From the NCBI GenBank assembly GCA_902576375.1, contig CACGUZ010000001.1, positions 124,001-188,000 on the forward strand: DNA of 64,000 bases, written 5' to 3'. The stretch comes from an uncultured Pelagibacteraceae bacterium (lineage in GTDB: Bacteria > Pseudomonadota > Alphaproteobacteria > Pelagibacterales > Pelagibacteraceae). Positions 25,403-28,025 of the stretch are shown piece after piece. How positions within the stretch are numbered: position 1 is the first letter of the stretch; the number at the start of each line of letters is the position of its first letter. A program made the position numbers and the translations under genes. The notes beneath the pieces were generated by a model, which worked only from the letters and a program-made list of their open reading frames with translations, was not told the DNA's origin and made no database searches.

Positions 25403-25849
25403 TTATTTAATTTCAATAAGTTTTCTTTTTTTATGCTCAGGAACAATTCTTTCACAAGATATTGTTAAAAGACCATCTTTTAACTCAGCACCATTAACTT
25501 TCACATCGTCAGCTATAGTAAATGATCTGGCAAATTGTCTTTGAGAAATACCTTTGTGAATTATTTCTCCATCAGCATTATTATTTTCAGATTTATTAAC
25601 TTGTTTAGTTCTTACAGTTAATAAATTATCTTCAAACTCAACTTCAACATCATTTTTATTAAAACCAGCTAAAGCAACTTCGATTGCATAATTATCCTTA
25701 CCAGTTTTTCTGATGTTATAAGGCGGGTAGTTTGACTGCATAGTCAAAGAACCATTACCAAGCATATTTTCAAATTGGTCAAACATATCGTCAAAACCAA
25801 TTGAAAAAGGTCTCAGTGAGTTGAATATAGATAAATCCTTACTTGTCAT
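25403..25849 (-). CDS. ibpA: Small heat shock protein, Hsp20/IbpA family
   Basis: A 148-residue alpha-crystallin-type chaperone that holds unfolding proteins during heat stress. It has the N-terminal DLSIFNSLRPFSIGFDDMFDQ typical of IbpA-like proteins, the crystallin core (YNIRKTGKDNYAIEVALAGF, VEVEFEDNLLTVRTKQ), the motif IHKGISQRQFARSFTIAD, and AELKDGLLTISCERIVPE before a basic tail. It is preceded by AGGAGG. Upstream lie a sigma-32-type promoter and a ROSE-like leader, which indicates heat induction at both the transcriptional and translational level. Confidence 0.93.
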   Translation of the reverse strand: MTSKDLSIFNSLRPFSIGFDDMFDQFENMLGNGSLTMQSNYPPYNIRKTGKDNYAIEVALAGFNKNDVEVEFEDNLLTVRTKQVNKSENNNADGEIIHKGISQRQFARSFTIADDVKVNGAELKDGLLTISCERIVPEHKKRKLIEIK

Positions 25850-25908
25850 AATATCCTCCTTTGTTAAGCAAGTTTATTTATTGTTAGCCCCATTAGGCGA
25901 CTAACAAT
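25850..25908 (-). promoter_or_regulatory. Candidate ROSE-like RNA thermometer in the hsp20 leader
   Basis: Read on the minus strand, the leader begins with a hairpin ATTGTTAG...CTAACAAT (25901-25908 with 25880-25887). It then carries CUUGCU (25867-25872) seven bases before the Shine-Dalgarno AGGAGG (25855-25860). In ROSE elements a conserved U-U/C-G-C-U motif masks AGGA through an imperfect pairing with a bulged G; the same pairing is possible here and can extend by one C-G pair. At about 57 bases and two hairpins it would be much shorter than rhizobial ROSE elements. Structure is inferred by eye. Confidence 0.65.
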
Positions 25909-25910
25909 AT

Positions 25911-25940
25911 TTATATGGGAATTATTTGTTTTTTTTCAAG
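25911..25940 (-). promoter_or_regulatory. Sigma-32 (RpoH) promoter of hsp20
   Basis: On the minus strand, CTTGAAA (25934-25940) is followed after a 14-base spacer by CCCATAT (25913-25919), continuing AA. Both boxes match the proteobacterial heat-shock consensus CTTGAAA and CCCATNT exactly, with a normal spacer. Transcription should start near 25906, giving a leader of about 57 bases. The promoter lies in the 100-base gap after ptrB, so hsp20 need not be read from it. Confidence 0.85.
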
Positions 25941-25949
25941 ATATCAAAT

Positions 25950-28025
25950 TTAAATTTTCTCGGAGATCTTTAAAATAAATGCGTAGTCAAAAGCTATTTC
26001 TTCAATTGCACCATCTCTACCTGACTTACCTCCGTGACCTGCGTTCATTTCAGTTTTCAACAAAAGCAATTTATTATCAGTTTTTAAATCTCTAAGTTTA
26101 GCTGTAAATTTTGCTGGTTCGTCGAATAGCACTCTATTATCACTTAAGCTTGTAGTAATTAACATGTGAGGGTAATCCATTTTTTTAATATTATTATATG
26201 GAGCATAAGAATAAATATAATCAAAATGGTCTTTTTTATCTTTTGCATTTCCGAATTCATCAAATTCTCCAACAGTAAGAGGCAAAGAATGATCCAAGTT
26301 AGTTGTTAACGAGTCAACAAACGGTACTGCCATAACAATTCCAAGAAATAATTCTGGAGATTGATTGACTACAGCTCCCATCAACAAACCACCAGCAGAT
26401 CCACCCATACCAATAATTTTTCCTTTCGATGAATATCCTTTTTCAATCAAAAACTTTGCTACGTGTATATAATCTTCAAATGTATTTTTTTTATTAAGAA
26501 GCTTTCCCTCCTTCCACCATTTCATTCCTTTTTCCATTCCCCCTCTAATATGAGCAGTTACCCAAATAATATCTCTGTCAATTAAACTCAATCTAGTTGA
26601 GGAAAAATCTGGAGTCATTGAACTTCCATATGACCCATAGCCATATAAAAGTAAATTTGCTGAACCATTAATTTTTGTTTTTTTGTGTCTGGTAATTGTA
26701 AGTGGAACTAATCTTCCATCATGAGAAGGGCACTCTAGTCTTTCGACTATATAATCATCTGGATTATGACCAGACGGTATTTCTTGTTCTTTTACTAATT
26801 TTTTTTCTTTTGTTTTTAGATTGTATAAATAAGTTTTACCTGGTGTTTTAGGAGACGAATATGACAAGTAAACGGAGTCAGTATTTTTACTTCTTTGTAT
26901 CAACGAAACACTGGGCACAATCACAGATTCATCAGTAAATTTTAATTCTTCCTCGATTCCTGTTTGTTTATTTCTTACGAATAATTTTCCTAATGCATTT
27001 GATTTTTCTCCTCTGATAATCCAATCATTCAAAAATATTAATCCTCCAATTAAAACCTCCTCTTTAGCAGCTATATAAATTTCCCACTTTTGATTTGATA
27101 AATCATCACATCTTTCGATTTTGAAATCCTCTGCATCATCATTAGTATGACAATAAAAATATCCACTCCAAGAATTAACTGAATAAATTACACCCTTTTT
27201 CCTTTTTTTAATTAATTTTGGTTTTGGTTTTTTTTCTGTTACCTCAAAGTAATATTGTTCGGAAGTATTATGATCTGATGTTGTTATAAAAAAATATTTT
27301 TCGTCTGAACTCAAACTTATGCCCACAGTAAACGCTTCACTTTTCTCTTCAAAAATAAGCTCATCATCTTTGACTGATGATCCAATTTTATGTCTAAATA
27401 TTTTTCTTGGCCTATGAAATTCATCAAGCTTTGAATAAAAAAAATATTGGTCGTCTAAACTAAAAGTAATACTTCCACTTGTTTCTTCTATTTTCTCAGT
27501 GACTAATTTTTCTGAGGCAATATTTCTTATGTAAATTGTATAATATTCCGATCCTTTTAAGTCTAAAGAATAACCTAAAAGTTTGTCATTATAACTTACC
27601 TCTAAATCACCTACCCCGAAGTATTCAGTTTTTAATTTTTCTTTTTCTACATCACCGTTCCAAAATTCTTCAACTGTATTACTTCCAATTTTCTTTCTAA
27701 GTTTTATGGAATAATTTCCTACTGCAGTTGTTTTAGTCCAATATTCATATTCTTTGTCTTTAAATTTTAATGATTCATCATCTAACTTTATTCTACCTTT
27801 AATTTCATCAAATAAGATTTTCTGACATTTTTTTGTGTCTTTTAAATTATGTTCTGTAAAATTGTTTTCTTCTTCAAGATATTTCCTTACATCTGGAAGT
27901 AGCTTGGAACTATCTTTTAAAACCTCGAGAATATTATCCTGGTGGATCCAACTATAATTATCTTCCCACGTGGTATTGTGACAAGATTTAAGCTCTGGTT
28001 TTTTTTTAAGTTGTGGTATTTTCAT
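25950..28025 (-). CDS. ptrB: Oligopeptidase B (prolyl oligopeptidase family, S9A)
   Basis: A 691-residue serine peptidase that cleaves short peptides after basic residues. The N-terminal half is the seven-bladed propeller; the C-terminal alpha/beta-hydrolase domain has LLYGYGSYGSSM, HIRGGMEKGMKWW and the nucleophile elbow GGSAGG with Ser543. The later acid and histidine regions (TTSLSDNRVLFDEPAKF, MNAGHGGKSGR) are present. No signal peptide is visible, so it acts in the cytoplasm on peptides, consistent with peptide use as nutrients. It is divergent from the J-domain gene with only 14 bases between ATG codons. Confidence 0.93.
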   Translation of the reverse strand: MKIPQLKKKPELKSCHNTTWEDNYSWIHQDNILEVLKDSSKLLPDVRKYLEEENNFTEHNLKDTKKCQKILFDEIKGRIKLDDESLKFKDKEYEYWTKTTAVGNYSIKLRKKIGSNTVEEFWNGDVEKEKLKTEYFGVGDLEVSYNDKLLGYSLDLKGSEYYTIYIRNIASEKLVTEKIEETSGSITFSLDDQYFFYSKLDEFHRPRKIFRHKIGSSVKDDELIFEEKSEAFTVGISLSSDEKYFFITTSDHNTSEQYYFEVTEKKPKPKLIKKRKKGVIYSVNSWSGYFYCHTNDDAEDFKIERCDDLSNQKWEIYIAAKEEVLIGGLIFLNDWIIRGEKSNALGKLFVRNKQTGIEEELKFTDESVIVPSVSLIQRSKNTDSVYLSYSSPKTPGKTYLYNLKTKEKKLVKEQEIPSGHNPDDYIVERLECPSHDGRLVPLTITRHKKTKINGSANLLLYGYGSYGSSMTPDFSSTRLSLIDRDIIWVTAHIRGGMEKGMKWWKEGKLLNKKNTFEDYIHVAKFLIEKGYSSKGKIIGMGGSAGGLLMGAVVNQSPELFLGIVMAVPFVDSLTTNLDHSLPLTVGEFDEFGNAKDKKDHFDYIYSYAPYNNIKKMDYPHMLITTSLSDNRVLFDEPAKFTAKLRDLKTDNKLLLLKTEMNAGHGGKSGRDGAIEEIAFDYAFILKISEKI

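Follow-up and report, generated by a model that had tools for sequence, protein, structure and literature searches.

What controls hsp20, a small heat-shock gene, in an uncultured bacterium of the SAR11 family Pelagibacteraceae? Regulators are few in SAR11 bacteria; an RNA thermometer conserved among them, if real, would place a heat-shock chaperone under translational control in one of the ocean's most abundant cells. The locus lies in a stretch of 64,000 nucleotides (hereafter the window), where the intergenic span runs from the stop codon of the gene for a prolyl oligopeptidase (25950–28025) to hsp20 (25849–25403), and where hsp20, its promoter and its leader are all on the minus strand. 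An initial annotation, made from the sequence, proposed a heat-shock promoter followed by a minimal thermometer of the ROSE type. The features discussed below are:

25934–25940, minus strand: −35 element CTTGAAA of the sigma-32 promoter, identical in 172 of the 208 distinct leaders from SAR11
25913–25919, minus strand: −10 element CCCATAT of the sigma-32 promoter, 14 bases from the −35 element
25880–25908, minus strand: hairpin 1, located where the mRNA is predicted to begin, with stem AUUGUUAG/CUAACAAU and head UCGCC-UAAU-GGGG
25866–25872, minus strand: anti-Shine-Dalgarno (anti-SD) strand CUUGCUU, containing the ROSE motif UUGCU
25855–25861, minus strand: Shine-Dalgarno (SD) sequence AAGGAGG, predicted to pair with CUUGCUU, with an internal G opposite G or a bulged G
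25847–25849, minus strand: ATG start codon of hsp20
25838–25846, minus strand: codons 2–4, ACA AGT AAG, whose AAGUAAG is complementary to CUUGCUU (7 pairs, one of them G-U) and could compete with the SD for it
25403–25849, minus strand: hsp20, 148 amino acids, Hsp20/alpha-crystallin family (PF00011, 64 bits, E = 1.5e-17)

A sigma-32 promoter ahead of SAR11 hsp20 is well supported by sequence comparison. The window promoter fits the sigma-32 (RpoH) consensus, CTTGAAA and CCCATNT separated by 13 to 15 bases, exactly, as first annotated, and CTTGAAA-N14-CCCATAT occurs once in the 64 kb against 0.02 occurrences expected by chance. It is also conserved: with up to three mismatches the promoter is found in 199 of the 208 distinct SAR11 leaders, and the spacer is 14 bases long in 193 of those 199. 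The hsp20 mRNA would start at the foot of hairpin 1, at about position 25906.

The leader that directly follows the promoter is about 57 nt long (25906–25850) and folds, by prediction, into two hairpins. The GC-containing 5' hairpin that had been proposed is located at 25908–25880, with a predicted stability of −13.4 kcal/mol at 37 °C, while hairpin 2 (CUUGCUU-AACA-AAGGAGG) reaches −3.1 kcal/mol (ViennaRNA). The core of hairpin 2 is flanked below by a C-G pair (25872–25855) and above by a U-A pair (25866–25861), and a stable stem across the start codon is absent from the predicted fold of the window leader. The placement of CUUGCU upstream of AGGAGG holds as described, with the gap corrected from seven bases to six (CTTGCT at 25872–25867, AGGAGG at 25860–25855); CTTGCT-N3-10-AGGAG occurs once in the window, where 0.12 occurrences are expected.

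Very probably, the translation of hsp20 mRNA transcribed from the sigma-32 promoter is controlled by this leader, acting as an RNA thermometer of the ROSE-like, two-hairpin type. Hairpin 1, a stable 5' stem, would leave the ribosome site free and, if it works as in Pseudomonas, would aid folding or protect the mRNA. In hairpin 2, U(U/C)GCU and the SD would form a weak helix broken at a G, which would keep translation low at normal temperatures and come apart in warmer conditions. Folding at several temperatures, which had been suggested as a check, gave melting in the expected direction: the predicted opening of the SD rises from 0.15 at 5 °C to 0.26 at 45 °C (ViennaRNA), a weak response with no sharp switch, computed with standard folding parameters that are poor for the G-G or bulged-G core of hairpin 2.

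The closest precedent is ibpA of Pseudomonas, whose two-hairpin ROSE-like thermometer has a hairpin II that melts and a hairpin I that does not (PMC3669281). The SAR11 element shares with it a sigma-32 promoter, a leader of about 60 nt, a stable hairpin at the 5' start of the mRNA, another hairpin in which U(U/C)GCU faces the SD, and a small heat-shock gene downstream. Unlike all the Pseudomonas elements, SAR11 hairpin 2 has no upper G-C clamp (a feature that is not general to ROSE), and its predicted stability is lower (−3.1 vs −4.1 to −7.6 kcal/mol). The SAR11 leader is a real candidate for a short ROSE-like thermometer, of a two-hairpin kind already known from Pseudomonas, and the initial view of such a form as a novelty of open-ocean streamlining does not stand. 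Nor is its tie to a narrow temperature range supported, the same short form being present in phages of cyanobacteria, OM43 bacteria and Pseudomonas (see below).

Comparison with the Rfam models points the same way. The best Rfam match, ROSE_3 (RF02523), which like the SAR11 element has two hairpins (69 positions), aligns end to end with 22.9 bits (E = 0.0039), and ROSE (RF00435) does so with 21.4 bits (E = 0.14). The proposed ROSE covariance search thus yielded full-length alignments with scores under the gathering cut-offs (43 and 45 bits, respectively), and at the gathering threshold Rfam has no match anywhere in the window. Both alignments cover hairpin 1 and the SD hairpin. With RF00435 the SAR11 element shares the head GYCGCC-UNAU-GGGGC, the SAR11 version of which fits the Rfam consensus GccGCCuuauGGggC, as well as the UUGCU/AGGA core. 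Unlike this rhizobial ROSE, which has three to four hairpins, the SAR11 element lacks about 30 internal positions and a lower stem spanning the start codon. RF00435 alone found nothing in this genome; this silence says little, since the model matches only 5 of 190 alphaproteobacterial genomes, none of them above the cut-off. The same UUGCU core with a bulged G is described for ROSE-like elements that lie upstream of ABC transporter genes, a different set of genes (PMC11342760).

Conservation was assessed in 234 hsp20 starts, taken from 80 named Pelagibacteraceae loci and further genomes. Whether UUGCU opposite AGGA is kept in related genomes had been named as decisive, and U(U/C)GCU faces the SD in all 199 distinct SAR11 leaders (197 UUGCU, 2 UCGCU), 5–9 bases 5' of it. 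Conservation throughout SAR11 establishes that the element is not chance. In hairpin 1, five pairs carry changes on both sides, clearly above shuffled and slid controls. The compensatory changes sought in SAR11 leaders are accordingly present in hairpin 1, while hairpin 2 is near-invariant and, because it hardly varies, gives no covariation signal, which is uninformative either way. The ROSE-like reading therefore gains from conservation, hairpin-1 covariation and the sub-threshold Rfam alignments; masking of the SD at low temperature, like temperature sensing by the leader as a whole, is something that we infer from the ROSE family. A covariance model built solely from SAR11 leaders has matches in 229 of 297 Pelagibacterales genomes, usually a single one in each, and several of the genomes without the element are also without a detectable hsp20.

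The head of hairpin 1 has the form UYGCC-N4-GGGR, in which Y1-R4 and Y2-R3 pair around a bulged G in 199 of 199 leaders. Since both pairs form throughout, including in UUGCC/GGAG, the bulge in the head is a G, as in the Rfam model, and we discarded the idea that hairpin 1 contains a further ROSE core whose bulged base is a pyrimidine. The head is conserved beyond the needs of a plain stem, which would suit control by protein, whereby translation is repressed by Hsp20 bound to the leader of its own mRNA, the head of hairpin 1 and the early codons serve as protein contacts, and temperature is read via the protein. Such self-regulation through the ibpA 5' UTR has been reported for IbpA of gamma-proteobacteria, including E. 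coli (PMC10474464). The precedent is limited to that class, however, and hairpin II of Pseudomonas suffices by itself for thermoregulation, both in vitro and in vivo (PMC3669281), so that we regard control by Hsp20 as quite unlikely and retain the RNA thermometer as the preferred reading.

The sequence under selection probably reaches past the start codon into hsp20 itself. Codons 2–4, ACA AGT AAG, are identical in 135 of 135 distinct full SAR11 hsp20 coding sequences (a raw count, uncorrected for shared ancestry) and occur in 226 of the 228 SAR11 loci whose protein starts MTSKD, the other two having AAA. Elsewhere in hsp20 these codons account for much smaller shares of their own amino acids (AAG, 20%; AGT, 6%; ACA, 44%), and their KL ranks are 2, 1 and 6 of 130 codons. 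In the neighbouring permease the early lysine codons are all AAA, unlike the AAG of hsp20. We take the invariance as real selection at the nucleotide level, one that sets SAR11 apart from Pseudomonas ibpA. Pairing of the codons with the 3' arm of hairpin 1 (CUUAC) was rejected, as the arm varies and the codons do not.

A tentative explanation of the frozen codons, which we consider possible although not the probable one, is a bistable variant of the thermometer, in which the anti-SD CUUGCUU has two rival partners, the SD and AAGUAAG in codons 2–4. Pairing with the codons would free the SD, and the frozen codons would set the balance of the switch; such an arrangement would add to the thermometer and not replace it. 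Besides the invariance itself and the contrast with the permease, the complementarity of the codons to the anti-SD favors this idea, and ViennaRNA prefers the codon:anti-SD fold when the window leader is extended by 15 nt of coding sequence, whereas with more coding sequence at 20 °C that fold is a minority (0.12). Type 2 leaders, in which the anti-SD is off by one base, can still keep 7 pairs (CCUUGCU:AGUAAGG); yet ACA is fixed there too (CCTTGCTAA), where its last A no longer pairs. AGC, which would pair perfectly, is never used, and the native codons rank only 4th–12th of 48 for predicted pairing, so thermodynamics do not single them out. Outside the close genera the N-terminus differs and the pairing is weak or absent, and the figure for AGT overstates the case, since the serine AGY and TCN boxes are more than one step apart.

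The frozen codons might instead act on the ribosome, independently of the anti-SD, through the SD-like UAAGGA of codons 3–5 (as a standby or pausing site). UAAGGA is complementary to the 3' end of 16S rRNA, and almost every member retains AAG plus GAY; but this reading, which we find improbable, needs neither ACA nor the AG of AGT, and the g4 relative L243 keeps AGTAAG without a following GA. Two variant forms of the leader occur within the order. Type 2 SAR11 leaders (L232–L242, L252–L278 and others) have the anti-SD moved by one base (AACCTTGCTAACAAAGGAGG) and the same SD and codons 2–4, while in more distant Pelagibacterales from a second family of the order (L248–L250) the leader is longer, with UCGCUUAAGGAGGA, and the codons are not frozen.

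More surprisingly, what looks, from its sequence, like the same sensor is carried as a rule by marine phages ahead of hsp20 (viral-contig loci, L082–L201 and L385–L576; named-phage loci, L369–L384). Among the matches listed, at least 123 sites of CTTGCTTAA-N0-8-AAGGAG lie in viral contigs, at least 91 of them before an ORF with a clear Hsp20 signature and at least 7 before DnaK; most incomplete or unclassified ORFs after the listed sites also resemble Hsp20. We also gathered viral hsp20 genes by protein and not by motif, as an unbiased set. Here T[TC]GC[TG]-N2-14-SD is present in 98 of 104 distinct hsp20 leaders and in 8 of 180 starts that have an SD but belong to other genes at the same loci (94% vs 4%), counts that are not independent events, as many viral contigs are closely related. 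Five of the six leaders without the motif have CTGTCTAAACAAGGAGG, and the sixth belongs to an incomplete gene. Hairpin 1 (GCY...RGG core, stem of at least 5 pairs) forms in 69% of viral leaders vs 0.3% of shuffles, and its own arms pair at 5.28 of 6 positions vs 2.87 for swapped arms.

This specificity for hsp20 bears on the simplest alternative, that there is no regulation and the AT-rich leader with its strong SD is complementary by chance. The weak predicted stability of hairpin 2 would fit that view, but it is contradicted by the universal conservation in SAR11 and by the phages, where the motif marks hsp20 leaders and not their neighbours, and we give it almost no credence beside the thermometer.

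A two-hairpin leader precedes hsp20 in all 16 named phage isolates examined: the Pelagibacter phages HTVC008M, Mosig, HTVC103P and HTVC115P; the OM43 phage Methylophilales phage Melnitz-3; Pseudomonas phage 30-2; and the cyanophages S-PM2, S-ShM2, S-SSM4, S-CAM1, Bellamy, P-SSM3, P-SSM4, P-TIM40, P-RSM1 and MED4-213. The SAR11-only model matches this leader in 15 of the 16 loci, most weakly in Bellamy, 30-2 and P-RSM1 (E = 0.045–0.12); the sixteenth, that of MED4-213, is matched by ROSE_3, as is the Melnitz-3 leader. HTVC115P has the least typical hairpin 1 of the named phages. PF00011 was found in 7 of 7 phage proteins tested, and Hsp20 relatives are present in 507 phage records; one 40-aa phage query returned no matches. 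In five phage leaders (L480, L481, L482, L485 and L487) UUGCU is replaced (ACTGTCTAAACAAGGAGG); four of them, all except L481, plainly keep the GCC...GG head of hairpin 1, and a different thermometer core is possible in these leaders.

The open-access literature that we searched holds no report of a phage-borne ROSE element (subscription papers lay outside the search). No relevant mention of a thermometer was found in the main text of earlier work on SAR11 structured RNAs (PMC2704228) or on cyanophage small heat-shock proteins (PMC3827213), nor is phage carriage described in the accessible part of the report on ABC transporter elements (PMC11342760). The phage side weighs more in significance, as hsp20 is common in marine phages, including the long-studied S-PM2 and P-SSM4. 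Its leader appears to hold a temperature sensor that does not depend on the host and that follows a promoter of the phage; if this is true, one could test directly whether temperature controls a phage chaperone in the course of infection.

In 66 of 84 viral leaders a TAAATA motif stands about 10 nt upstream of hairpin 1 (3.7% in shuffles), in agreement with the late promoter of T4 and cyanophages, NATAAATA (PMC2984593). HTVC103P and HTVC115P (L380, L381) have, by eye, a consensus sigma-70 promoter, TTGACA-N17-TATAAT, and then a ROSE-like leader with UCGCU. One RNA module is thus found behind three kinds of promoter (sigma-32, T4-type late and sigma-70): the RNA would be the constant, portable part of the control, and the promoter the changing part. 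The phage and bacterial elements may share a common descent, by transfer along with the gene, or the module may have been gained repeatedly. A bolder conjecture, which we think unlikely as a whole, makes the two-hairpin ROSE module a mobile thermosensor: together with hsp20 it would move between phages of SAR11, OM43 and cyanobacteria and the hosts of these phages, with one promoter exchanged for another, and in SAR11 it would have become a bistable switch, with the anti-SD choosing the SD or frozen codons 2–4.

A ROSE-type leader also stands before dnaK in seven viral contigs (L094, L154, L178, L180, L186, L193 and L195). No terminase was found in these seven contigs with the ROSE-dnaK pair, and it is the classification of IMG/VR that makes them viral. 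On L094, genes for DnaK, Hsp20, ClpS, heme oxygenase and bilin reductase are consecutive, and dnaK and hsp20 each have a ROSE-type leader.
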